Assembly: GCA_001051155.2 (NCBI GenBank)
Contig: JYIP02000003.1
Span: 4,588,001-4,652,000 of the forward strand
From: Chrysoporthe austroafricana
Lineage: Eukaryota; Ascomycota; Sordariomycetes; Diaporthales; Cryphonectriaceae
Direction: 5' to 3'
Length of the DNA stretch: 64,000 nt
This document shows positions 11,701-51,799 of the stretch, one piece after another. Each line of letters opens with the position of its first letter. The first letter of the stretch is position 1. The position numbers were made by a program, and so were the translations under genes. Under the pieces are notes generated by a model. It saw only the letters and a list, made by a program, of their open reading frames with translations. It did not search any database and was not told the DNA's origin.

Positions 11701-12472
11701 TCCTGGTGGATTGGGGAAGCAAAGATAGTCATGGACTCAGCTATGCTTAAGAGGACTCTTGGTTTAGCTCAAAAAGTGTAGAGCTCCCGTTTCGTGAAGG
11801 CCTTTCAAGTCTAGAAAACAGACAGGCGGTCATATTCTCCTCTCGTTGCGACCTGAGCGAACAGCTGAGACGACTCGTCCTATGCTAGTCTCTAGTCTCT
11901 ACTACTGGAACGACTCAAGTTATTATAAATAGCTTTCGTAACTTCGCGAATGTTCCTAGAAGCCTACCGGGCACATCGTATAGCTTGCTGTAGACATTGA
12001 TGGCTGCAACTTCGCTAGAATTAAAGTACCGCTTGAACCTGTCTCATTCTGGCTTGATGTTTGATGGCGTACCTAGCCGAGAAGACCTGTGGTCTTAACA
12101 TCGTCCAATGAGGCTGCACTACGGAGACGAGCAGGAAATCGTCTTTAGGCAGGCTGTAGTATCGCTAAATGATTGGCTCCATTATCTTCCCTTTTTTCTA
12201 CTATGAGCGTTGTGGGGCTGTTCAGCTAGATCATCATGCTGCGCCCCACCGAGAGCCCGTATAAGAATGTAGTCGGTCGTTGTTCTCTCGCCGCCGACCA
12301 CGATGGCTTCACCATCCCGAATCTAGCGCCCATCTACACCTTTGGTCTAGTCCCTCTGTTAGGCTTCTGCCGTTATTCCTCTTAATATCCTTTCGCTCGC
12401 TCGTAAGGACACTCTAGTTTATCGTGTAGGAGTCAAAACTTGCCTCTAGAATCCTCTATCAGCACAGCCGCG
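11701..12472. other. Intergenic region upstream of the HET gene
   Basis: About 770 bp, lower in GC than its flanks. A tataagaa box near 12260 could serve the HET gene starting at 12473. No coding pattern was recognised. Confidence 0.4.
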
Positions 12473-14324
12473 ATGCCTAGTGACGAGCCCGACATATTCC
12501 ATCACCAGCCGCTCCCGGATAGCAACACTCACATACGACTTCTCGAGGTCCTCAAGGCCAAGAAGGGCAAGGCCGTCCAGTGCGAGTTGACGGTATGGCC
12601 TATCAAGTGCGCGCCGACTTACCACGCTATCTCGTATACGTGGGGCGACGGGCGGCGCATGAAAGTTCGGAAGAATTGCGACCTTGTCTTGCGCCAGGCT
12701 GCAAACCACAGCCGCCGCCACCGCGGCTGGCGTCATGGCCGCGGCTGCCGCTACCACTGGGTCGACGCGGTCTGTATCAACCAGGCGGACCTCGAAGAGA
12801 AAAGCGGGCAGGTTCCCCTGATGGACAGGATCTATCGTAACGCCGGCCACGTCCTCGCGTGCATTGGCGAACACAAAGACGACAGTAAGCTGCTGTTCCG
12901 CATGCTGAAGCACGTAGAGAAGATCCATGAGGCGATGGTGAGGAGGACAGGCGATGCGGAACTGAAGGAGTTCCCAGCCAACTGGAGGCTATTTTACTGT
13001 GTGAGATGGCATCTGCGGTACACAAAGAGGGCACTGGAAAGAATTGACGACGCGATATCCGCTATCACCTCCAGGCCGTACTTCCAGCGCGTTTGGGTCG
13101 TGCAGGAACTACTCCTGAGTCGAGGTCTTAGCCTGTGCTGTGGAATGGCTTCCGTGCCAATTACGACACTGCAGACCTGGAGGATGATCCGGCCGTGCGA
13201 ATCTGGCTTCGAAAACCTGAAGCCGCTGAAGACAAATAGAGATGATACCATTCTCCTTACCAAAAAGACTGTAATCGGGTCAACGGACGTGTACTACCGT
13301 CTGGAAGACAGACTGTACGGGACTCGGGTGGCGAGAAGGCTGATGGTCGACTGCAGTTCAGCGAATCCCCTCCTCCAAAGACTAGGCGACTGCGAGAGCG
13401 AGTTCGAGCCAAAGTCCTTCCTCGAGGCACTCGACATCACGGAGCCTCTGGAATGTGAGGACTTGAGGGACAAAGTATATGGGATTTTGTCCGTTGTCGC
13501 CTGGGGCGGGAACAAGCCGCTTCTCCCAAATTATACTCAAGGCAAGCTCGTGCTTGCTGTCAACGTCTTTGAGAGCGTCTTCGCGGAGTTCCAGGGCTCT
13601 CGGGGTTGTGTTAGGGGTGATGTCGGCCTGTCGGCCTCATGGATCTCGAAGTTCCTCAAGCTGAACCTCGACACCGACGAGGACGTAGCCGAGGCGGTTC
13701 GTCTGCGACAGATCCCAGAACTTGCAGCCGACGATGAATTTATATCCTCGATGAGGTCAGAGGGCACAGGAGAACGTAAGAAGTTCCCGCCCGATGGAGA
13801 CGACAGGTGGAGAGCATTCCACATATTATCCGCAAACCTGTGAGTCCGTCATTCCGTGGACCTGTTCGTTAGCGATCTGACAAGATCGCAGGAATCACCA
13901 CCACTCCACCTATTCTCGTGGAAGGACCCGGCCCCCTTACTATGTTTATTGTGACTTTGCCTGGGATGGTCCAAGATATATCGTCCCGATGATCACTCGG
14001 CCGGGAGACTGGATCTTGGTAACCATCAGGAATGACTGGAACAGCTGGCATGACAGCATGTCTCTCGTTGCTCGGGAACGTGGAGATGGATATCTAGCCT
14101 TGATTGGTAGAGCCATTCCGATGGCCAGCTCGTCGCGGGCTTACTTCGAAGACTCTGCGCCTGTCAGGGTTTTCTGGGACGCTGAAGATGCCATCATCCT
14201 GTTTGGCGTGCAGCGAATTTGCGAACATGCATTTGGTCAGATGATTTATGAGCAAGAAAACATCTCGTGGGTACAATCAGGTGTCTGCAGGACGCTCCGC
14301 TCTTCCTACGCCTGCTGGAAGTAG
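12473..14324 (+). CDS. HET-domain (heterokaryon incompatibility) protein
   Basis: Exons 12473-13839 and 13892-14324 (52-nt intron) give 599 residues. The HET domain occupies roughly residues 35-215. Its three hallmark blocks are present: YHAISYTWGD, HWVDAVCINQADLEEKSGQV followed by MDRIYRNAGHV, and YFQRVWVVQELLLSRG. A sequence LRDKVYGILSVVAWG follows, and the C-terminus carries PGDWILVTI and a YLALIGRA ending typical of these proteins. HET proteins trigger programmed cell death after recognition of non-self in fungal fusion; the domain is TIR-like. The stretch between the first and second blocks is unusually rich in His and Arg (around residues 75-92). The open frame extends 11 codons upstream of the chosen ATG but without another ATG. 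It appears intact. Confidence 0.88.
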
Positions 14325-22116: not shown

Positions 22117-23627
22117 GTTGGCGTATGGAACCGGCCGGGCAATTCAAGAGAGAGCGAGTGGTGTTGTGTGAGGAGGGCAAATGGCAGGCCGGACGGAGCT
22201 CTGCGATGTCGTCGAGATTCTGCCCCGCGGTGGGGATGTTACTAGTACCACAGTACGTACCTACTACTATGGATGTAGACAGCTACGTAGTTCAACGGCT
22301 GGGGTACCCCTGCCACCGGTGGGCAGGGGTCTAAAGTGGTGGGGCAAGGGGCAGGGCACAGGCATCCTCGGAAGGTTAATGTCAGCCTTGAAGTATCAAC
22401 CTCGAGTCCTGGAATGATCGATCACCTCTCTCCCTCTCCACGGCGTAGGTGGTTGATGAAGTGTATAAATCTGTAGGAAACCCTGGTGTGGCTGGCATGA
22501 GAAGCCTAAGCCATCTGTTTGCCCGCCCCGCCCTCTGTTGCCCCTGAGAGGTACTGTTCTACAATGCAACACTGCAGAAACCCGCGAAAGAGCCCCTCAG
22601 GTTTATTGTGTCCCCACAATCGCAGACAGATAGAAAACAATGAACTCGCGCTGAGGTCCACGCCTGCGCTCTTGCTGAGCTGCTGGGCGCCTGCTGCCAC
22701 GAGCCAGCCCTGCGGCGTGTGCTGGAGGGAGCCCGCCAGGTAACACCGCGCAGGCAGAGAGAGGCGCGCTAGGGGGGGTTGGAGGGGAGCTGCAGTCATG
22801 CCCCTAGGCTGCAGCCCTCCAGCCCACCAAGCTGGGCTCTCACCCTCCCCTCCCCACGACCAGCAGCGACCACTACCACCACCGTCACCACCACTCCCAC
22901 GCCCTTGCCCGCAAACCTGGATCGTTCAGTCATCGTAGTCTCAGGAGGCATCTCGAGACGTCCACCAGGAGGGCAGGCGGACAGACCGTTCCCCTGCAGC
23001 AGCCTGCTTCCAGCCACAAGCAGGTCGCCTTGCTCTGCCTTGACAGCAACCGTGTTTAGTCAAGCCAGGTCAGGCCAGCCTCTGCCATCGACCGCAACCT
23101 GCGGCTCGAGAGGCTGAGAAGACGGGCACGGTACATAGGGTATCATCTCCCTCCCACGGTCGCTGGACGGGGGCAGAAACGTGTCTAGGGGTTGCCTGTC
23201 TGGCGGCCTCTGTCTGTTTGACTGAGGTTGGTCCTTGGCCCTTGTTCCTGTTCTACTATCCCTTCACTCATCCACCTGATCACCACACCACACCACACCA
23301 CACCACACCACATTACAGGGCACTACAGAGCTTCAACCTCCCTCCCAGCCCGAGACAGAGGCGAGACTTCACACCGAGACTGTCTCCACCAGCGCACCCA
23401 TCTATAGTCCTATCCGTCTGGGCCCCAGCTGGCCTTCTACCCACACATATATTGACAAGCTTCGCCAGCCAGCAACACCTTCCCTCCTTCTTTACCTCTG
23501 CGATTATTTCTGCTAGCTCATTGTACGCATCTGGGCGGTGAGCAGCCAGCTGACACCTCTCACCAGCGGCACCATCGTCCCGCGCCCGCCTCCCGCCCGC
23601 GCGAGGTCCTTGAGCCCTGCTTGAGCC
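22117..23627. other. Divergent promoter region
   Basis: About 1.5 kb between the divergent dienelactone hydrolase and PARP-UBE2Q genes, containing both promoters and the probable leader of the latter. No protein was recognised. A CCACA microsatellite lies 320 bp before the PARP-UBE2Q start. Confidence 0.45.
23281..23312. repeat. (CCACA)n microsatellite
   Basis: About six tandem copies of the pentamer ccaca in the probable 5' leader of the PARP-UBE2Q gene. Confidence 0.9.
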
Positions 23628-26600
23628 ATGTCTCTCAAGCGATTCAACGCCGATCTGCGGTCTGCCCGCACTCGGCTGAGCGAAGTTGGGATTCCAGGGG
23701 TCACCGCCATCGAGCGTGGCGATTCTGACGGGGAGCTCGTCTTCACCTTCGTCAATGAGAACCTCGCCGCACCCCTTCCCATCCGCCTGCTCTCTCAGAA
23801 CCCCGACGGCTACTCTGACGACCACAACTTTCTTCTTTTTACCGATGCCGAAGATGCCCCGCCTGCCCTGACCAAGGCCCTGGCGGACCTTCAGAACTAC
23901 ACCTTCGGCCAGAACGTCTTCGACTCGCTTCGCGATGTGTCGGGCGGCCTGGCCCGCGCCCTGGAGCCGACGGACGGGGACAGCGACATCAACATGGATG
24001 ATGCCGACGAGGTCGTTTACGTGTGTGAGGACTCTGACGATGGAGACGATGATTACGGTGCCTTTGGCGATGAATTTGATGAGATCTTTGGCCTTTCGCC
24101 GTCGCAGAACCAGGTCCCCGGGTACCGCACCGCCACCAGGGTGTCCTCTGGCGTGCTCAGCAGGATCAAGAGGGACCTCCGCAGGGCCCGCAGTGCAGGC
24201 GTCAAGGTCGGCATACTGAACGGAGTCCAGAGCGGTGCCCGGACACACACGCTGTCGCTTTCTGTGCGCGCAAGCAGGCTAGGCATCTCGGACGAGACAC
24301 TGGAGGCCTGGGACGTCGAGCCGTCCGAATACATCGTCCTCCTGCTCCGGACCAACGAGCCGTACCCCACGGCCGACATGCTGTCGAGCCACGGCGCCGC
24401 CCCCTTCGCCCTCGACTTCCGATTTGGCAAGTGCGCTAGGTACAAACCAGACGCGGTTTCGGCACGGAGGGCATTTGATTCGTACTTCGTGCGGGCCGCT
24501 AGCAGCGCCACTGCCCAGGGCGTGGAGCTGGAGGATCGGGCCTTCAAGAAGCTGTTCATCTCCAACTCCCTGGAGCAGTTCATGAACGAGCACTTCCTGT
24601 CCCTCTTCGACCTCCGCATGAGAGGTTGCACAAGCTGGGACGATGCCAACGCTCAGCACAACAACCTCGGCATTCAGCCTCAGGAGGCCGACCTCGTCGC
24701 ACGAAGAGCCGCGGACGGCCTTGTGATACCCGGACGCAGCAGTGCCAAGGGCAAAGACAGAGCACCCGGCCCGGCCGCAACGGCGGAGCTCTCCGACCCC
24801 AGGACCGCGATCCCGGCCATTCTGCTGCCTGACGAGTTGGGAGCGCCCGTCGAGGATATAAGTATGCCCCTGGTGGCCATGCAGTTTGCAACGCACTACT
24901 TCACTCGGTGTACGGAGTATTGCTTGCGCTGCCACCGGAGGCTGGACAAGGAGTTTGAGGCCCTGAAGCCCTTCGTCTGTTCGGATCCCCTGTGCCTATT
25001 TCAATACATAACGATGGGTTTCGGCCCTTCCATCGAGCACGAGGTCCTGACGCAGCCGTACGTTGTGGACCTCCTGGTTTCCCTGTGCTACAGCAGCGTC
25101 CAGTCACCTTCGAACGGTGTCGGGAAGTACCCGATACGTGATTTCCCGACTGGGCTGCGGCTCAAGGTGCCCAAGATAGCGTCCCAGTTAATGCCCCAGA
25201 TGGGGGTGCCGAGCAAGGAGCCTTCCACAAAGACACTGGGGGTCACCGTGGACCTGGAGCGGAAGGTCATACATGTGAATCAAGCTGCGGATCTTGATCG
25301 CCTCTCTGGGCACCAATGGGTCGTCCTTAACCACTTGGCCGTGACCGGACAAGTACTGAGACACCATGCATACATCACATATGTGGACCGCGCGACAAAC
25401 AGTATGGAGGCGGACATCAGGTACGTTGATCCGTTGCTTGCTAGTATTCCAAAGATCTCTGGCAGGATGTATATGGAGCTAGCCTTGTATGATGCCGAGT
25501 TCGACGATTTGGACAACGATGGAAAGGCCGCGGCCATGATCTGCGTCCTGACGACGCTTCCGCCCGTCTCGCACCTGCGAGAATACCTGATCCGCAACCC
25601 GCACGGCACGCTCAAGACCTGCCCAAACATCTCGCCCGCGGCGCTGACCCTGCTGCAATGGATTGTGGCCTCGAACCGATCGTGCATCCTGCAGGTCAAC
25701 GCTGTGAGCGACCGCCATGCGACCGACGAGAGCCTGCTTGACACTATCAAGATACGCGAGCAGGAGGCTGTGCCTTCGATGAGGGCTGGCCATGTCCAGT
25801 TCCGTTTCGCCCAGGGTACGCCCGACAAAGAGTTCCGGTTTCACCGCGCCCTCAAGGAGCTCGAGCTACAGGGCCAGACCGAGTACCCAACCCTCTTCGC
25901 GTGGCACGGAAGTGCTCTGAGGAACTGGCACAGCATTCTGAGACATGGTCTTGACTTCAAACAAACCGACAATGGCCGCGCATTCGGCCACGGAGTGTAC
26001 TTCAGCCCAGACTATAGAGTCAGCATGGTGAGTTCGCTTTCCTCTTCCATCCTTTGCTTCGGGCTCATCCTATGCCACATTTTCTTGCCGCGGGAGTACT
26101 GATTCTTGGGAACTGTCAGGGCTATGCGCATGGGCCTATGGCCTGGCCAAACTCGGCATTGAATGCTGCTGCGGCAATCGCCCTGTGCGAAGTTATCAAC
26201 CAACCCAGCCAGTTTGTGTCCACCAGCCCTCACTATGTAGTCCCGCAGCTGGACTGGATCCAGTGTCGATACCTATTTGTCAGCGCGATTGGAACCCCAG
26301 CGAATGGGTCTTCTACCGGCGATGCAGCTAAACAGGACTCGATAGACGAGATCGCCCAAGACCCCACGCGACCGGTGAGTGGCCCTGATGGTAAGACCTT
26401 GCAGATACCCTCGAAAGCTCTGCCAAGCAGCCGAAGTGCTCGGCAAGGGGGGAAGAAGCTCTCCAAGTCATCGTCGAAGAGGAACCGCAACATATCAAGT
26501 GCAGCCGCTAGTACAGATGAGGAGGACGCCGCAGATCTGGAGGTCCTGTTCAGTGATCACGAGTCTCTCCAGCCACCTCAGAAGCGGGCCAACTTCAACA

Positions 26601-39469: not shown

Positions 39470-42400
39470 CTACCAAGAAAAGCTGCTATCAGTATCACCA
39501 TCTTGTTCCTCATCCATTCTGGCCGATCCCGGTCTTATGGCTCCAGACGATTCACTATGCTTGAAGCTTCCTGGAGTTCCCATGGTTTGTCTATTCGTAT
39601 CCTCCAGGCTCTGCAAATCAATGTCATCAGCTGGATTCCCAAAACGACCAGCGACGCTGAACCCTCCTAGCTTGGCGTCGATACTGATAGTCGGGTACAA
39701 TTGGCCGCTAGGGACCTCGTCATTCTCAAACGCAACACCTATATCCGCAGTGCACAGTGTCAGCAAGTATCGCCTTCTGAAGGGTTTGTAGCACCATCGT
39801 AGGACATTAATTACCGAGAGATCGCTTATTCTTGACGAAGGAGACGGTTCTATTCCCGTCCCGAACTTGGATCTGGCAACCGACAGTGTCGCCTAAGCCG
39901 AAGCCTTCGGCATATGGCCGACCCCATCCCACTTGGTCATACGCTCGGCCGTCGTCGCCATGTAATGCTATGGATCCGGCGTCCCAGCCTACCATGCGGT
40001 CATCCGTAATATCCTCAGTGCACAGGCCAATGCCGATGTCGAAGCTGTAGGTGCTGTTAGTCTGCCTGCCACACTTCAACATTCGGCTCGAACATACGGT
40101 CCTTTGAGTGGCTCCGACCTCCCAACCGGTGCAGTGATTGTGATCTCGAAGTAAAAGTCTCGATCGGCAGGTATGCAGAAATTCGAGCGGATCAGTGCAA
40201 ACTCCCGTTGCTCGACGTTAGGGAGGGGTCCCAGGCCGACAGTGACGGTTTGGCTATCATTAGACACTTCCAGCGGGTATGGTTTCTCTTTGGTGTCCCA
40301 CCCCGTGGGTGACTTGGGTGAGATGGAGTCATCTTGTGTGGATTAGCCTTTAGCCAAGTAGTTGCGTCTGGTGCAGTGCTCACCCTGACTCTTTTTGATA
40401 GCGCCTTTGAACCAGGCCGGCAGCTCCGACGAGGAACGCGGCCTGCTATGTTCCATGGTGTACGCCAGCGTCCAGCCGTTCCTATCTGGCTCTGACTTAG
40501 CGACAATTTCTGCTCTTGTTTCTTCATTTTCATCTCCGAGCAGGGCGTTGAGCAGACCATCTGGGTCCTCCGCAGTAAGCACATTGTGCAGGGCAGCTGA
40601 ACAGCAAATGCGCCACTCGCTTCTCTCCGACATTTTAGCCACGACCTGCTCCACAACATCGCTGGATCCAGACAGACATGCCCAGTACAGAGCATCTCGC
40701 TTGTGCACGTCTTCCTGAAAGACATTTATATCTCTATCGAGGAGCAGGCCTAAGATTTTTGAGTCACCACCCCTGGCACTTAGCATCGTCGGGGTCTTTC
40801 CCGTCAAGTCGCATATATTTGGATCGGCCTCGTGCTCGAGAAGTTTGGACACTAGCTGAGCGTTTCTCTTCTTTACTGCCATATGTATGGCCGTATCACC
40901 GGCTTTGTTGGGCTTGTTGAGGGAAATGTTGTGTTCTGTCGCATTCTCCAAAAGATAGTCGACCACCTCGTTCGAATCCCACATGATGGCGTAGGTTAGT
41001 AATGTGTAGCCTGGGGCGACCTCCGTTTTGGCCGACAGGCCGGTGCCGTGCCTAATAAGGGCTGCCACGGCGCTGAGCATCTCCTTGCGAACAGCCGCCC
41101 AGAGCGCCTCTTCCAAACCTTCCAAGGGGACCCTAGACGATTTTAACACAATCTCCACCATACCTGAGTCTACCGTCTCGATGGCGAGCTGCATCGCAGC
41201 CTTACTGTCCTTCCGAATATTGGGATCGGCACCACGCTCGAGGAGGAGGCGTGCGACTTCTTTCTCTTCACCTATAATGGCAAAGCTAAGCGGAGTGCCT
41301 TTGCTGTCGATCTGCGCGTTTATATCTACACTATCAACGCTCAGAAGGTACTCGACGACCTTCAACTCCCCATTGTAGGCCGCCAAATGGAGCGCTGTTG
41401 CACCACTGGCCTTGGCTATGGTCGGGTCGACTTTCTTGTATTCATTCTCAATCAAGAGTTTCACGACCTCCAGGTGTCCGTTCTGAGCTGCGCGGTGGAG
41501 GGCAGACGACCCAGTCTTGTTCCTGATTGTTGGATCTGCCCCGTGCTTCAGGAGGAACTCAATCACCTGGACAGATCCCACTTCTGCCGCAATAACAAGA
41601 GCTGTGGATCCGTATTCATTGACCTCTTCCACCAGTTCTCTGCGTTCCCCCTTGCTGCCGACGAGCGCGACCGTGTTAGCGAGATTCCCGGTCGCGTGGT
41701 GTAGCGGAGTCCATCCCCTACTATCCTTCAGGTTTGGTTCTGCTCCGTGCTTCAAAAGACAGGATATAACCTCGGAGTTGTCTCTACTTGCGGCGCATGC
41801 TATGTGTAATGCTGTGGCGTCGTTGAATTCTTCGGGCGAGTTCGGATTTGCTTTCACTTCGAGAAGCTGTTCAACTACACTTTGTCTCTCGTCATCTCTA
41901 CATGCAACATGCAGAGGCGTTTCCTTGCTATTATTGAGATGCTCACGATTCGCACCGCCCTGAACAAGCGGCTTGATAACCTTTGGCTTGTTTCGGAGAA
42001 CGGCTAGGTGGAGGGGGTGCTCTTCATCTTTATCGAGTCTGTTCATATCGAAGTCTCTTTGATGCAAGACGGATATTGCCTGTTCATCATCGTTCTGGAT
42101 GGCTGTGTAGAGCAATTCATAAAGTTCATCCGTAGACTCTTGGGACAATTGCTTCCAAGTCCCCTGGTGCGTCAAAAGCGTATTCAAGGCTCTGTGGTGC
42201 TGTCTCCGTAGAGCAACTTGGGCCGCTTTGGTGATCGCCTGGTGGTCGAGTGAACTGAGTTTCTTCTCGCTGGACAGAAGGGCGTGGATAACCGCGTGCT
42301 GCCCACTCTCAGCAGCCAGCTCAAGCGCTCTTGGCGCTGTCTGTGCATCACTCTCTACGAGATATTTGACTACAGGCACATGACCTGCCCTGGCAGCAAT

Positions 42401-45400
42401 TTCTAGGGCGGAGATGGTGGGCTCGGTAGATGATGAGGGAGGCTCTGGCTCTGAGTCGCTGGTAATTTTGGCCTTGCCATGCTCAAAAAGAGACTTGAAG
42501 ACGTCGAGATGCCCATGCTGAGCTGCTAGCTGAATGGGCGTCATCTGTTCGGCGTTCCGAGGGTCAACCTCGCACCTTGGTTCTTCCAAGAAGATTCGCG
42601 TAACCTCGTCGAATCCCATTCGAGCCGCCAGGTGAAGGGGGGTGTTTCCCCCCTCGCCGGGACGATTTACTTGGATGTTATACTGAAGTAGTAACAGGAT
42701 GATCGGCCGCTGGCCATGTTCTGCTGCTATTAAGAGGCACGATTCCAAATCGTCAGACGCCGAAATAGAAGTGCCATCGGAAGCATTAAGGTTTACTTTC
42801 TCCGACACGTTGCGGCTGGCTTGGGCATCATCAGGCTCGTCGCCTCGGTCTCTATATGCCGAGGGGTCAGACTCAATTTTGAGTTTCCGGTATGCGGCGT
42901 GCTCCAGAAACTTGGAACAAATCTCCTCGTCCCCGTTCTTGGCAGCCTGGTAAAGAGCGCTTGATTTGCTCTCGTCATGGATCGTAGGGTCCGCTCCACT
43001 AGCGAGAAGTAGCTCTACCACTTTTGCTTGGCCATATTCCGCAGCTAGGAAGAGTGGAGTTTTGTTGTTTGACGGTATTGGTTTGTTTATCGTCTCCTTG
43101 TCTGCATCTAAGAGCAGACTCAAGATGGCATAGAAGCCTGACTCGGCTGCAATTTTAACGGCATCATATCCGTTATTATCGATTGCTGTAATATCAGGCC
43201 GCTCTTTGAGTTGAAGTATTTGTTCGACCATCGCCTTGTTACCCAAACGGGTGGCTATGTGCAGCATCGTCGATCCATCCTGCGCTGTGGCCCTTGAAGA
43301 CGCTCCATGTCTCACCAACACATCCACGGCATGCAAGTGATCTTGTTGGGTTGCGAGGAGGAGCGGCGTAAGACCTCCTTGGCCCTTTATTTCGAGAGCT
43401 GACGGCGAAAGGACAGGAGCAAGCTCAGTAATGAGTTCTGCTCTGCCTTCCATAGCTGCGAAACTAACACAGTCCTCGACCATTTGATGCCTAAGGTTAA
43501 CATCACTAGCCCAGTATTGTTTATTTGATATTTTTGAGTCGGCCAATGGGTTTGGAAGGAGCACCTCAGTCTCATTTCCTCCAGGAATGACTCCGCTAAT
43601 GAGCTCGTTCACGATCTGCGTGAGCCCAAGTCTACTGGCGGCGGCCAGGGGAGAGGCTAGAGGCTCAAGGCTCTCAGATAGATGACTCTTGAAATGTACG
43701 TACAGGCTGAACCAAGTAGAACGCAGAGGAGCATTCTGGAAAAGCTGAGAAACCGTTTTGTGCGCCTGAGGGTGGCCATGACAGAGGCTGTAGTGGTCAG
43801 GCCAGCACAGGGTAGAGTACTTAAGGAACTCAGCCTCTTTGGAGAGTGCGGCAGTCTTCGGCTGTATCCCTGGCTCAGTACTCGATGTGACTCCTACCAC
43901 AGACGATCTGTCATGATAAAAGGCGCTAATATACTTGATACAGGCATTCAGCATTGAGAAGTGCAGCTGTCTCGAAACCGGTTTGTGATTTGTGTGGAGG
44001 TAGTCGGTGAGCGTCTCGTGTATCGGGTACAAGCGGCCGTTTCTGATCTTGATCAAATGCGCAATGCCCTTTCTTGCAGAAATATCTTTATAAATGTCAT
44101 ATGAAGTGTAATGGCGCAAGTCTCGCAGTGTCTGTGTCTTGGTTCCCTGGAGAGCCAGGCATGTTGCGAGTTCGGGGCTGCGGAGAGGTCGAACAGCTGT
44201 CGCAATGCACCCTAGCACCTGACCTTCCCATAAAGACAGGTTGGTGAAATAGTGCGAATATAAACCATCCACGGTCTTGGGAAGATGTCCAAGACTGAGC
44301 TTGAGCTCCGCTTCGGTTGAGTATTGGATGGACGCTTCAAGCAGCCTCAGTCTCTGCGTCATCAGCAAATATGGAGGAGACCCCTCGCACAGACTGCGGA
44401 TCACTTCCTCGTGAAGTTCGAACCACAGAGTGCTTTGCCTAGCGTTTCTGAGTACACCCTGCCGGACAGCCTCTTCTGATGCCGTCCTCATCTCCGGGTG
44501 TGTGCTGAGATTCAAGGATAAGAGAGTACTGAGGTTGATAGGGAAGACGATCTTGGCCTCAGAAGAGCTAGTCAAGGCAAATTTCAGAGGTCCGCCGGCT
44601 TCTTTCTGAATGGAAGCAGCATTCTGTAAGTATTGAAGCAGGCTGTCTTCGCAATTGTGGATTCCGTCGATGAACCCAAAGACACTTTCCGGATAATATT
44701 CGAGTAACGATCGTAGCAGGGCCCACATTCCAGCTTTGTTGAAAAGGGACTGCTCTAGTAGAGCTCTACATAAAGGTTGTGTTCTCCGGTACAACGAAGG
44801 TCTGGCGGAGAGAAGCTGCCGGCATAGCGATAAGAGAATATTTGCCGGATCGGTAGTCTGTACGTACTGCTTATGGGAGCTAAAACTGATGAAGGTTGCG
44901 TTACGGCAGTCAGGGATTGCCATGACCTGCTCCATGAGAAAGCCAGAAATAGCAGATGATCCCGAACCTGGTTTACCGTGGAGGTGAAGAATGCTGTTCT
45001 CCGAAGATGCCAGCCAGCTAAGAAAGGTGTCGTTGGTAGTGATCCACCCCATTGTCGGATGTCGGCCGCTGAGCGCATCGAAATGTGTTCCAGGATCTCT
45101 CTCAGCAAGAGCCTGCATGAAATCCGAGTATTCGACTTTAGAATCTGTGTGTCCGAACATTAGAACCCGAAATGGACTGCTAGGTTCACGTCGTTCAAGA
45201 CGCACCCCTTATCTTGGTTTTCTCATCAATGATGCTCCAAAGCAATTGAGTCTTTTGGTCGTCGGGCGTGAACCACCAGAGTTCGCTATGGGTGCAGTTG
45301 GCAGCGATGTTTTCCTCCGAGGCAATGCCGAAAGTGGAAGAAGACTCATCTACCACCTTTGACGCCAAAATCAGAGTCGATTTTGTTTTATGGGGTGTAG

Positions 45401-46284
45401 TGAAGTGACACATACCCGGTTGCCAAGGCCAGTTTCATAACCTTCCCCTTTTTCTGGACGCTCAACAAAGTTGACAATGGAGAATTTTGACAGAAGCAGA
45501 GAAAAGGGCACAGTGATTGAGGAAATCATATCGGTGGACTCTTGTACGAAGGCAAGAGGGTCAGGAATCTGTTGGGTTGTCGCAAGCATATGACGCATTA
45601 ATTGCTTGTCCAGGGATGTTTCGCTGCTCACCCGATGTAGGGTGCCGAAAAAGAACTATAGAATTATCAAAATTAGTAGTGCGAACTGAGTCGAGAACAA
45701 GTCTTTATCACAGACCAGGGCAATTGTTCTCCGGATGAGATCTTGATACTTCCAATCTCTTGTCGCTTCAAGCAAGGCCTTCAGAGGTTAGTCAAATTTT
45801 CATAACATTGCAACGAGTTTGTGGCCGAAGGGGTGAGAATGCTAATCGATGACAAACCTGTTTTACCACCAAGCCTCCAATGTTTTGCGCTAGAAACAGG
45901 ATCGGCCCTGGATGTGTGATCCTGGTATGATCTGTAGGCTGGATCTGGGCTTAGATGACAAGTTATCACCAGAGCCACGGCCACGCACCTCTTGTAACCC
46001 TGCCTCATCTGATAATAGTTGGAGCAAGTTCTCTGATGCCCTCCAAATCCATCCTGTCTGTGACACCTGGATGGTCCCCGACTGCAAACCATCGAACACT
46101 ACGACACGGGCTTCTGGGAAGCGATCATGAAACACTTCTTCAACGTTTTGCTTTGATTGAGCCGCGTGCCGCGAGACCTCGAGCCCGCAAACCAGCACAA
46201 GGCTGCAGGGAGATCACGAGTGGTTAGCATGGTCGCCACAGGTTGACGATCAAGGGAGGTACTAACTCACTAACAAGAAGGCAT
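39470..46284 (-). CDS. NLR-like protein: SesB-like hydrolase, NACHT-like NTPase, ankyrin repeats, SPRY
   Basis: Ten minus-strand exons (46271-46284, 45989-46202, 45858-45944, 45716-45778, 45416-45655, 45206-45356, 40384-45144, 40098-40332, 39815-40044, 39470-39738) give about 2087 residues. Residues 1-250 resemble the SesB-type alpha/beta hydrolase found on fungal NLRs (PILFLAQNIGGLVVKQ; FFFGTLHRVS; VVDESSSTFGIASEEN). Around 300-700 is a NACHT-like region: HLHGKPGSGSSA in the P-loop position, FGFIDGIHNCED at Walker B, and a winged-helix-like part ending LYPIHETLTDYLH. More than twenty ankyrin repeats follow (for example TPLHLAARMGFDEVTRIFLE). The last three introns assemble a SPRY domain (FYFEITI, GIGLCTE, GSIALHGDDGRAY, VRDGNRTVSFVKN, GVAFENDEVPSGQLYP). 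The hydrolase nucleophile appears as Asn97 and the P-loop Lys as Ser. Exons 2-4 are less certain (one 44-nt intron, one gtctgt donor). Such proteins act in fungal non-self recognition. Confidence 0.8.
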
Positions 46285-46712: not shown

Positions 46713-47564
46713 TCAAGCGCCTGTCTCGATTGGCGTAGCGAATGTCACGTCGACGCTCTTGAGCACTTCCATCTTTTCCATTTCTTCCACCGCATTGCCG
46801 AGATTGGCGGGGTCGATTTTGACGGGATCCACGGCTTCCATCTGCCCTACGCCGAAGAAAGAGCGAACATCTGTGCCAAAATCGACCTTGGTGTGGATAG
46901 CAAGCCTGACCAAGAAGGGCTTGTCGTGGTTGTGCCGGAGGAGCACTGCCGTTCTCATCCACCTCGGTATCCCGTTCTCCTTCTCCTCATCTTCAGCAAG
47001 CCACCAGATAGCCGCGTTATCCTGTCCAAAATCGTCCTCGCGCTCATTGCTTGGAATTCCCGACAAGCTTGTGTAGTGCTCTTTGGTGATTTCCCCAGAG
47101 ACTTCCCATTCGAAGCCCAAGCTTGCCTCCACCAGACCGTCCATGCCAGAACCCAGGGTGCCGCTGAACTTTTTCCTGACTGCTGACTTGCTTTCGGCCT
47201 TGTTCAGTGCAAAGGATCCATCTGGGACAATCTTGTGCACCACAGGATCCAGTTTATGGTCAGCCTTGGGGAGGGCGTCCGCAAACTCCACGACGATCTT
47301 GGCGCTCTTAAAGCGTCGACCCGGGTTGGGTACCTGAAAGCGGAATTCGAACACCAAGAGTGTCCCGCGTGGCCCACCCTTCGTAATCGTACCACTAAAT
47401 GCCTTCGTGAGGACGGCCCTAGTCCTCACAACGCCTCCATGGTTTCCCTTGTTAATGATGACCATCGAATCATTAGGCTTGAAAACTTCGCCAGGCTCCC
47501 TCCTTTGCCGTAAGGAATCATCATCATCCGATGTGGGCAGCAGGGGAATGTCGATAACGTCCAT
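46713..47564 (-). CDS. Conserved-looking protein of unknown function, predicted beta-rich
   Basis: A single-exon gene of 283 residues, co-directional with the NLR-like gene downstream (start codons about 1.3 kb apart). Hydrophobic alternation indicates beta strands: GTLLVFEFRFQVPNP, FKSAKIVVEFADAL, LVEASLGFEWEVSGEI, TAVLLRHNHDKPFLVRLAIH. A conserved-looking AAIWWLAEDEEKENGIPRWM segment sits near residues 195-215. There is no signal peptide or membrane helix. I do not recognise the family, although the pattern resembles proteins of unknown function encoded beside fungal incompatibility genes. The clean uninterrupted frame, in a neighbourhood full of broken genes, argues that it is under selection. 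Confidence 0.75.
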   Translation of the reverse strand: MDVIDIPLLPTSDDDDSLRQRREPGEVFKPNDSMVIINKGNHGGVVRTRAVLTKAFSGTITKGGPRGTLLVFEFRFQVPNPGRRFKSAKIVVEFADALPKADHKLDPVVHKIVPDGSFALNKAESKSAVRKKFSGTLGSGMDGLVEASLGFEWEVSGEITKEHYTSLSGIPSNEREDDFGQDNAAIWWLAEDEEKENGIPRWMRTAVLLRHNHDKPFLVRLAIHTKVDFGTDVRSFFGVGQMEAVDPVKIDPANLGNAVEEMEKMEVLKSVDVTFATPIETGA

Positions 47565-48312: not shown

Positions 48313-51300
48313 ATGCCAGAGACAGAACTGCTAAGAGGGTATGAGAGTGATGAGGATATTGCCAATTCGTCCAACACCAAGGACACAGAAGTGAGATCCA
48401 GGGATCTTTTAGCAGCAGCAAAAAATGTCGACTTTGACGATAATTCAGAGAGAAACGATTTTGAGAAGAGACACAAGGAAGCCCTGAAGAGAGCCAGCAA
48501 CTCCAAAAAATCGGTGGACGGTAATATTTTGCATGCCCTGGCCAGCGATTCAGAAGATGAGTGGTGGATTTCCGCGAGGAGCGCCCCGCGAGCCAGATCT
48601 TTCTTGAAATGGGTTGTCAAAGAGCATCCGCAAATGTTGGAGTGCCAACTCATCAATAATGGGTATCTCCCTTTACATTTGGCGCTCTATCGTCAAGACA
48701 AGAGACAAGAATTTGTGCGCATTGTTCTTGAAAGTCTCGCCCCCGAAAGCAGGGACGAGCTGCACCCTACACTGGTCCAGATGTTCCAACATCGCAACCT
48801 GCAAGATGAAACCTGTCTGCATCTTGCTGTGAAGTATCGCTCAGAGCATACGACCCATATCATCAAATTATGTGCTCAAGTTGTACAGTTAGCACCAAAC
48901 CGCGATATTTTTGGACAGCGCAGCAAGATTGATGGGCAAACGGCACTCCATCACGCGGTCCGGCTGATCAATGAGGAGCCAAATTACGACATCGAGTTTC
49001 TCACGGAACCAAAGCGGTCGGTCATTCCACTGCTGAAGTCATCATCAGTTGACCAGCCGGCTCAGAACGACTGGGAGCTGATTGGTCTGAAACCGGTCCG
49101 AAAGAGCCCTGACGATAGGAGAAGAGAGATTGTGAAACTTCTCATGGAATCAGATACTGAAAAGAAGGCAATACTGGCAAAGATGGAATGGAAGGATAAC
49201 AGCCAAGAAAGAAAGTGGAACTTGACTCCCTTTCAGGCCAGGGAGGCGGACTTGGCCGTTGTCATGTGGAGTATTTATAAAACTAAAGCCAAGAAGGCAT
49301 TGCCACCGGAAAAGTTTCCAGACAAGGAGAAGACGCGCGCCTTCGCGCGTGGCCAACTTTTCCCGGCTGCCTTAGCAGAAGCACGAGGTCAAGACGAGAT
49401 CTTGACGCTGTTGAAGCTCCTATGCATCGATAGTTTCCGTACCAATCGCAAAAAGCTTCTCCAGGCGCTCTATGAGCCAGGCAGAGGTACGTGTTATCCA
49501 CAGCTTACTAACCTAGGACATCATGCTCAAATAATAATAGAGAGACACCTCGAGTTCAGCCTATCAGGGCTTCGGGGTCAGACTATAACGAAAGACTATC
49601 TCAAGAGACTTGTGAAGCATCTCAAGTTCGAATCTATTCTTACTTGCGTCAGGCTGCCGAGTCTGATCTTTGAGACACAAACGGCCGATGACGGACTACA
49701 ACCAGCACAGGCCAACAGCCACTCACGTAACGGGGATCCCCCGGATTTGGCACAGCAGATGATTACCGCTGACGCTTCTCAGAAAGGGAAGGGAAGAAGG
49801 GACCTCGTCTCCGTATTTGGCTGGCTGAGGGAGAACCATGTGCGCACGATCAAGCGCGTTGTGGTCATCGATGATGGTGATCGGCCGCATTCAGACGAGG
49901 CTATTGAAGAAGCTTTGCACGATTTTGACGTAGAGACTTGGGACTGGAAGAAGCCCGACATTTGCAGCGACGTGATTCACTCGGTGGCACCCAATGCCAA
50001 AGAGGTGTCGTTGTATTGGTCTGGAAATGCTGCCACCATTCTGGGCTGGTATAGCAATGAAGGCTTTGCCAATCGCAACAAATTCAAGAAGGTGGGCCAG
50101 ACCCTCTCTGCCTCAATGTCTGCACCAGATTGACAGATAATGCCTTTAGCTAAAGAAGATTATTCTTTACTATGATAACGTGCGTGTCCAATTCATCAGA
50201 ATCCACGTCCTGGGCCTCTGAGCCATAGAAGGTTAACAAATGTTTTATAGGGGTTTGAAAGCAAGCCGAGACTAAAGAAACACATCGAAAATTTTCAACT
50301 GAGGCTTAACGAATCAGTCAGCAAGCAGAAGGCAAGCATCAGAAGCCCGAACGATAAGCAGCTTCTGCATAGCCAAACTGAGGATGTCGAAAAGGAAGAC
50401 TATGAGATTGTGGAAAATAAGGATCCACCTATGCCCCTAGCTCCGATCCTGCCTGAACCAGGAGAAGAGATTAAGATTGTCCCTGCTGAAGACCCAGGAT
50501 TCCGAAGTTTCAGGTCGAGCTTCAAGAGTGTCAGCATGAGAGGTAGTCAAAAGTAAGTTCCGGCCAGTCCACAATATCCTGCCTAAGTAGTAAAACGGTG
50601 AGAACTAACGTCGAGGGCTTTGTAAATCTCTAGCGACAACAAATGGCTGCGGGACATTGAGCCTGTATCGAAATTCATTCGCTCAATTGCCGACAAGATA
50701 GAACAGGCGAAGAAGAATTCAACGAGGGACATGCCGATACAGGAGGAGCCGACCGTGAGCATTGCCATCATTGATGACGGCATCGACGCCTTCCTTGATA
50801 GGTTTGACGGGAAAATCATCTCAGGTGCCTCATTCTGTTCTCCAAACGGCCTCGATGATTCGATGGAGCCTTATTTTCTTCCTTCTAGCGGCCAGCACGG
50901 CACGCTCATGGCAGCCCTCATTCTGCGCATCTTCCCTCGTGCACGCTTATACGTGGCTAGGCTGGACGAGAGATCGAGTGGTGTGCACGGAAAACGGCAT
51001 ATAACCGCCCGTTCTGCGACTGAGGTGAGTATCTAAGCTCAAAAGGCCGCAGGTATCGGAAACTCACGCTAACCGTGCTTTTAGGCCATCGATTGGGCAA
51101 TCCGCTGTAATGTTCACATCATTTCCATGAGCTGGACCATTGAGAGAAGTAGCAAGACGACCGAGGAAATCAACGGACTGACTGAGGCATTGAACAAAGC
51201 CAAGAGCGACCACAAAATTCTCATGTTTTGCGCCGCTAGCGACCAAGGCAATAGCACGCGTCTGTACTGCTATCCTGCAGCCAGCGACGATTGTTTGCGG

Positions 51301-51799
51301 GTTGGGGCCTCGACGGAAACAGGCGAGCGTTGTGACTGGGTTCATGAGAAAGAGTACGATGTACTGCTGCCCGGCGAAAACGTTCCGCTCGACCTAGGCA
51401 TCGATACTATATCTACCGAGCACAGCGGCAGCTCCATTGCTACCGCAATTGCATCGGGTCTTGCCGGGCTCATCCTCTACTTGGCTCAATACAGTCTTGG
51501 CGAGAAGGAGTGCAGCAAGTTCGGGCTCACTGGAAAGAATGAGATGCGGGCCATGTTCCGTTTCCTAGCGAATTACAGCCCCACTAACTCCAGTTTCCCC
51601 CAAGTTAGCCGGTTGAGCTTTCTCAAAGATAAGGATGCGAGACGCCCCAAGGACGAGAAGGATGTGACAAGAGAGCTGAAAGACTTCTTCAAGCAGTACA
51701 AAGTAAGTACATACTCGCAAATTCGCAAAAGATAACTGGGTACAAGAACTCCCTTCTGATTCCGACTTTCAGGATTTTTTGGCCAAAGCGGGAAAGTAA
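48313..51799 (+). CDS. Ankyrin-like and subtilisin-like (S8) domain protein
   Basis: Six exons (48313-49486, 49541-50091, 50251-50552, 50634-51024, 51085-51702, 51773-51799) give 1020 residues. The N-terminal half has divergent ankyrin-type repeats (YLPLHLALYRQD; ETCLHLAVKYRSEH; GQTALHHAVRLINE). A conserved module follows: FGWLRENHVRTIKRVVVIDD, HSDEAIEEALHDFDVETWDW and KEVSLYWSGN. The subtilase domain (about 715-960) keeps its triad: Asp723 (VSIAIIDDGID), His764 (SSGQHGTLMAA) and Ser923 (SGSSIATAIASGLAGLI). There is no signal peptide, so the protease should be intracellular, as in fungal NLR-type S8 effectors. Intron 1 is 54 nt without a stop, so retention would add 18 residues. The donor of intron 2 (gtgggc) is a guess; otherwise the frame ends at 50133. 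Together with the neighbouring NLR this suggests a cell-death or recognition role. Confidence 0.82.

Follow-up and report, generated by a model that had tools for sequence, protein, structure and literature searches.

Fungal NOD-like receptors (NLRs) of the NACHT/STAND type are built in the order effector domain, NACHT domain, repeats, and variants of this plan have been described: In a survey of the Sordariales, SPRY domains occur in 46 NLRs, always at the C-terminus and always together with ankyrins (PMC12258605), and another study notes non-canonical P-loops in fungal NLRs in general (PMC4986451). The fungal gasdermin clusters are a second kind of related system. According to two reviews, about 80% of the fungal gasdermin genes cluster with proteases (about 63% subtilisins, 19% CHAT proteases), these proteases often carry ankyrin or tetratricopeptide repeats (TPR), and two- or three-gene clusters occur (PMC10197012, PMC12881547). 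Here, we have analysed a window of 64,000 nucleotides of the Chrysoporthe austroafricana genome (contig JYIP02000003.1, positions 4,588,001 to 4,652,000) that encodes an NLR with a C-terminal SPRY domain, a small protein and a subtilisin. Our sequence comparisons argue strongly that this NLR is a fixed pseudoenzyme that has lost the motifs of both its hydrolase and its NACHT-like domain. Tentatively, and giving the idea somewhat less than an even chance, we propose that it acts as the receptor or scaffold of a cassette together with the subtilisin and the small protein, the latter being a candidate substrate or executioner.

Three motifs carry the first conclusion: In the NLR, the serine elbow reads AQNIGG (residues 93-98), the P-loop GKPGSGSS (residues 311-318) and the Walker B motif FIDGIHNC (residues 412-419). 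A first-pass annotation of the locus had reported these replacements of the expected motifs, and all of them are present in the gene model that we have rebuilt. This model comprises ten exons on the minus strand (46284-39470) and predicts a product of 2085 residues. The gene starts with the ATG at 46284 and stops at 39472-39470, its nine introns are all of the GT-AG type with 50 to 79 bases each, and the spliced frame contains neither a stop nor a frame break. The exon boundaries, including that of the 14-base exon 1, match those of the relative P0001, whose model is a prediction as well; in the alignment, the start of the NLR, MPSSYLVLVCGL, stands against that of P0001, MPSCYLVLVCGL. The elbow asparagine, previously given as Asn97, is residue 95 in the ten-exon model; the acceptor before 45944, which is just as possible, would make it residue 97. 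Reading of the sequence also ruled out a splicing variant that restores the serine or the lysine, since the two motifs are exon-internal and in a frame that matches the relatives.

The same losses are found in related proteins. A database search with residues 1-780 of the NLR yielded nine proteins from 7990 scored candidates, five of them close (P0001-P0005), and a profile search brought in one further relative, P0010. P0001 contains AQNIGG, GEPGSGSS and FIDRIHNC, and P0004 from Bombardia bombarda, 44% identical to the query, contains AQNVGG, GKPGSGSS and FIDGIHNC. The P-loop is GKPGSGSS also in P0002 and P0003, whose models both begin downstream of the elbow, the model of P0005 begins downstream of the P-loop, and P0010 has the elbow SQNVGG and the P-loop EPGSGST. 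The query, P0001-P0005 and P0010 form one clade with a Shimodaira-Hasegawa-like approximate likelihood ratio test (SH-aLRT) value of 100 in a quick tree of 42 rows, which omits, from 51 database proteins, ten without a NACHT-profile match as well as P0014 and P0031; L075 and four other sequences have long branches. Within this clade, and with the query counted, the elbow residue is Asn in all four readable rows (query, P0001, P0004, P0010) and the P-loop Lys is replaced by Ser in six of six. The P-loop residues of the query are common to P0001-P0004, which are 44-67% identical to it. The first Asp of Walker B is kept in the query and P0001-P0004 and the later acidic pair has become HN; P0005 and P0010 have Thr for Asp. 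The losses are thus fixed and not private, as the orthologue alignment suggested earlier was meant to decide, and the presence of the same residues in relatives rules out a sequencing error or private decay.

The first-pass annotation had also held that the gene is otherwise intact, which agrees with the open 2085-residue frame and the shared losses. Alternatively, the motifs could be in relaxed decay since a recent duplication that has so far left the remainder of the gene undamaged; each loss would require no more than a few base changes. This is largely contradicted by the occurrence of identical residues throughout the clade, in relatives as distant as 44% identity, and by the uninterrupted spliced frame, and we give it hardly any weight. 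Moreover, both dead domains roughly match the rest of the protein in conservation, or exceed it, as judged from the identities to P0001 (hydrolase 67%, NACHT 75%, ankyrins 60%, SPRY 59%) and P0004 (54%, 61%, 51% and 55%, respectively). The glycine loop is of particular interest in this respect: PGSGS is invariant in the six rows, unlike a decaying loop, and this would suit a NACHT-like domain that binds nucleotides without hydrolysis, with the replaced residues tuning the binding in a nucleotide-sensing switch. With the phosphate-contacting Lys and the acidic residues past the Walker B Asp gone, however, such a switch seems improbable. Since the losses are fixed in the relatives, the non-catalytic sensor or scaffold suggested by the first-pass annotation is the best, though inferred, reading of the NLR, and the conserved hydrolase fold would fit a binding role.

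The domain assignments of the NLR correspond to the order found in fungal NLRs if the fold of the effector domain is taken from the model of P0001. Pfam identified NPHP3_N at residues 285-447 (70.1 bits) and, C-terminal to a long ankyrin array, SPRY at residues 1901-2018 (58.2 bits). In the query, no hydrolase family exceeded the Pfam cut-off. DUF676 and PGAP1 match weakly in the Pfam search of nine relatives (best E 0.0061). The structure prediction, run on residues 1-204 of P0001, did return an alpha/beta hydrolase fold for this part. The segment CTHSELWWF of the query contains a His, which presumably stands at the place of the SesB DHSG motif; P0002 has Lys there. The extreme C-terminus (window 39470-39520) is acidic and ends with SFSW, DFSW or IYSW in the query, P0001 and P0004, respectively.

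The genome (48.15 Mb, 22 contigs) contains 77 NPHP3_N matches, and the P-loop was read in 51 of them (the 30 best, 20 chosen for P-loop coverage, and the window), leaving 26 unread: 45 have Lys, one has Arg, the window NLR alone has Ser, and four have no recognisable P-loop. The latter, L051, L052, L053 and L055 (on contigs C5, C20, C8 and C21), have VHG or VDG at this place, L051 with an in-frame stop, and are perhaps a further P-loop-less family. A degenerate elbow pattern, used as a source of readings only, matched ten times; two matches are intact SesB-type elbows (VHSLGG and CHSLGG), and the remaining eight are the window NLR, its paralogue on contig C22 and six chance-like matches. This paralogue, L035, is a second hydrolase-NACHT-ankyrin-SPRY gene with the elbow GYGFGG, i.e. 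Gly for Ser, and it keeps the P-loop Lys. Its relatives form the sister group, clade B (21 rows; SH-aLRT 80 for these alone, 99 with P0051 inside), with Lys in 17 and Arg in four of the P-loops. The elbow residue is Gly in all seven rows found by the pattern (L035, P0037, P0042, P0044, P0047, P0048, plus P0051), a count without the many relatives whose models lack the N-terminus. P0011 has SHDLGG, and Ser is found in P0006 and P0008, which are remote relatives.

The neighbourhood of the NLR links it to two further genes, both located outside its coordinates 39470..46284 (see Table 1): a small gene and a divergent gene (48313 to about 51735) for a protein with a subtilisin triad, as judged by motif, and ankyrin repeats. 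The genome contains six copies of the small gene. The protein search revealed those on C16 (the window), C22, C2, C21 and C1, and the sixth copy, on C12, was found in searches with two other family members after the pattern of protease linkage had been formed. Each of the six has a protease no more than 5 kb away, a subtilisin in five cases and a TPR-CHAT protease in one. On C22 and C2, the order of protease (divergent), small gene and hydrolase-ankyrin gene is repeated, and on C22 the small gene and the SPRY-NLR share a strand, with the small gene immediately upstream. In the C1 locus, it is the protease gene that stands between the small gene and the hydrolase-ankyrin gene. At the C21 locus (L073), the small gene adjoins the TPR-CHAT protease (103.8 bits), beyond which a caspase-domain gene is found, and the gene that follows the C12 copy combines an ankyrin part (39.0 bits) with a subtilisin part (52.3 bits). 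With 19 subtilisin and eight CHAT loci (matches grouped), the nominal chance of such proximity is 0.56% per copy for the first five copies; since the copies share ancestry, the product of these values is no real probability. The linkage of the small gene and the protease is good, in one genome.

In the subtilisins of the window, C22 and C2 (the latter read over several frames), all three catalytic motifs (Asp, His and Ser) can be recognised, and the C1 subtilisin has the Asp and His motifs and an altered Ser motif, NSGATA, as read by eye. The oxyanion place is occupied by Asp in the window (50626-51735), C22, C2 and C1 subtilisins and, by eye, also in that of C12; apart from the window protease, these subtilisins beside the small gene are those of L072, L075, L077 and L082. 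Three further subtilisins of this genome, L079, L080 and L081, have Asn there. Asp at this place is known from the convertase PC2.

Table 1. Features of the NLR locus (positions in the window)
Feature	Position	Strand	Remarks
NLR exon 1	46271..46284	-	ATG, 14 bases; agrees with start of P0001
NLR exon 2	45989..46202	-	predicted pseudo-hydrolase domain begins here
NLR exon 3	45858..45938	-	holds elbow AQNIGG; start could be 45944 instead
NLR exon 4	45716..45778	-	
NLR exon 5	45416..45655	-	
NLR exon 6	45206..45356	-	
NLR exon 7	40384..45144	-	NACHT-like domain (motifs GKPGSGSS, FIDGIHNC), helical part, array of ankyrins
NLR exon 8	40098..40332	-	SPRY begins here
NLR exon 9	39815..40044	-	SPRY
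NLR exon 10	39470..39738	-	SPRY end and acidic tail
Small gene, candidate substrate or executioner	46713..47564	-	single open frame, 283 residues, upstream of NLR
Divergent gene, first long frame from first ATG	48313..50133	+	Ank_2, 29.6 bits
Same divergent gene, subtilisin part, Asp and His motifs IIDDGID, QHGTLMA	50626..51036	+	20.5 bits, below cut-off 21.8
Same divergent gene, subtilisin part, Ser motif GSSIATA	51085..51735	+	52.9 bits; Asp at oxyanion place

Two further frames of the window contain a HET domain (12407-13843, 94.7 bits) and a partial PARP domain (23625-26102, 37.6 bits), respectively.

Taken together, these genes suggest the following scenario: The NLR, a SesB-type alpha/beta hydrolase without nucleophile and with a NACHT-like domain without the P-loop Lys, would be a non-catalytic receptor or scaffold that reads a ligand with its ankyrin and SPRY modules. 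The ligand-bound receptor would then release or assemble the subtilisin, i.e. license a protease switch, and the subtilisin with its retained catalytic motifs would cleave the small protein, which might be both the protease substrate and the probable executioner of cell death. The joint action of the three proteins, the order of their action and the cell-death output are all conjectural. The third gene is firm in the window and on C22, with hydrolase, NACHT and ankyrin matches. On C2, the hydrolase matches at the elbow (SHDIGG, E 2.6e-5) and past it (E 1.2e-4), and on C1 past the elbow (E 1.2e-4); both of these proteins, which are remoter than the NLRs of the window and C22, have ankyrins. The C2 and C1 P-loops were left out of the counts. 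Provided that all readings are correct, none of the four third genes retains the elbow Ser (Asn, Gly, Asp and Asp instead), three of these readings being firm. The replacement of the Ser by different residues in different lineages is in keeping with the view that the receptor could dispense with its own effector chemistry after a neighbouring gene had come to supply the effector.

The aspartates among these elbows also allow a different explanation. Epoxide hydrolases and dehalogenases use an Asp nucleophile, and with SHDIGG on C2, probably AEDIGG on C1 and SHDLGG in P0011, some family members might be active with a changed chemistry. Judged from the residues, this is very unlikely for the family: the Asn of the query clade is no such nucleophile, and the Gly of the sister clade cannot be one.

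Several observations weigh against the proposed cassette or complicate a simple account. First, the third gene is firm in only two of the six small-gene loci: the C1 elbow AEDIGG is a reading by eye, and its frame has a score no better than E 4.3, the CHAT copy on C21 has no NLR in the flanks examined, and the flanks of the C12 copy were covered to 5.2 kb. NACHT was not detected in the C2 and C1 third-gene proteins in a search without built gene models (C1 best E 0.63), which lowers the cassette reading. Second, loss of the ATPase motif is no rule of the cassette since the C22 NLR keeps the P-loop Lys, and changes of this Lys recur outside the query clade (Ser in P0013, Thr in P0012, Arg in P0011), including Arg in four clade B rows. 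Third, a search with Foldseek alone found nothing below E 0.001, and the elbow pattern matched nine times in the backward control as compared to ten times in the genome, so that it can provide readings only. Fourth, an ankyrin match above the cut-off accompanies the protease at three loci (window, C2, C12), that of C1 is below the cut-off and C22 has none, and the protease may act on another target. Finally, outside this genome the linkage is seen in a single protein, P0042 of Fusarium decemcellulare, possibly a gene-model error: the N-terminus of this clade B SPRY-NLR is a relative of the small protein (25% identical over 209 residues, E 3e-11).

These points bear on the most serious competitor, which we regard as unlikely but by no means negligible: the pseudo-NLR might act on its own, as a decoy or regulator, and merely adjoin a separate two-gene unit formed by the small gene and the protease. 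The missing NACHT on C2 and C1 raises this alternative. A protease stands beside all six small genes but a firm NLR beside two, the genome has 77 NPHP3_N matches, and gasdermin-protease units are usually two-gene clusters (PMC10197012). Yet the window and C22 NLRs are remote paralogues from different clades with the same layout, P0042 joins the small protein and the NLR in another species, and hydrolase-ankyrin proteins are found at C2 and C1 as well; the three-gene cassette is our preferred interpretation.

The small protein of 283 residues has no Pfam match and was not assigned to any family, a profile of the family (seven rows) gave no match in the PDB at E 10, and gasdermins were not among the matches of a single-sequence search. 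A comparison of the family with three exons (two from L079, one from L081) by hhalign gave 0.1-0.2% probability, a weak test with single-sequence templates. The family contains no segment of sufficient conservation for a profile search of bacterial genomes. As a control, the L079 exon beside another subtilisin of the same genome matches RCD-1 (E 1.6e-4). The second candidate gasdermin exon, that of L081, has no RCD-1 match, which indicates that sequence tests can miss gasdermin members. The single-sequence model of the small protein has a predicted local distance difference test score of 34.6, too low for use. The gasdermin-like exon L079:735-1259 lies beside a DUF7580-subtilisin gene (L079:1864-4897), which resembles an ordinary fungal gasdermin cluster. 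It is tempting to speculate that a doubly dead NLR sensor and a subtilisin or CHAT switch control a small protein that founds an executioner family unrelated to gasdermins but taking their place, and that the receptors repeatedly shed their effector chemistry (Asn, Gly, Asp) as the effector moved to the neighbours. This wider scenario, which is also lowered by the missing NACHT on C2 and C1, is doubtful at present.

If the cassette is real, the odd motifs turn into a testable rule: NLRs linked to a protease and the small protein lose their own N-terminal enzyme. Moreover, if the small protein kills after cleavage and is no gasdermin, it would represent a further, so far unrecognised fungal executioner family that surveys seeded on RCD-1 or HET-Q1 homologues would have overlooked. 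Natural pseudoenzyme NLRs also allow asking whether fungal NLR signalling needs nucleotide hydrolysis.

How does the locus compare with the known systems? The SPRY-ankyrin NLRs of the Sordariales share the order of ankyrins and C-terminal SPRY with the window NLR, so that this combination, regarded as unusual in the first-pass annotation, was already published for 46 NLRs; the loss of the nucleophile and the P-loop Lys and the association with a protease and a small gene are additions not described in the available part of that survey (PMC12258605). The fungal gasdermin/HET-Q2-like protease clusters have the same layout as the cassette (PMC10197012, PMC12881547, PMC10989679). A small gene no more than 10 kb from a subtilisin or CHAT protease was taken as the mark of such a cluster, and here all six are found within 5 kb. 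The window protease resembles the HET-Q2-like proteases in its subtilisin triad (IIDDGID, QHGT, GSSIATA) and repeats (Ank_2, 29.6 bits). In contrast to the gasdermin clusters, no similarity to gasdermins could be detected in the small protein, and the likely third gene encodes a pseudoenzyme NLR. The cassette subtilisins, moreover, have Asp at the oxyanion place instead of the Asn of L079, L080 and L081. SesB-like NLRs have the alpha/beta hydrolase, NACHT and repeats in common with the window NLR, but the intact ones of this genome have VHSLGG and CHSLGG instead of AQNIGG. Loss of catalysis with retention of the fold for sensing or binding is known from plant sensor NLRs with degenerate P-loops and from pseudo-hydrolases that serve as receptors or in adhesion, such as GID1 and the neuroligins; this is an analogy, and no homology is claimed. 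A search of the open-access literature, from which many journals are missing, brought up no description of this cassette or of pseudo-SesB NLRs with fixed losses. Thus, the NLR is a variant on published themes, i.e. SPRY-ankyrin architecture and non-canonical P-loops, whereas the small family may be more than that.
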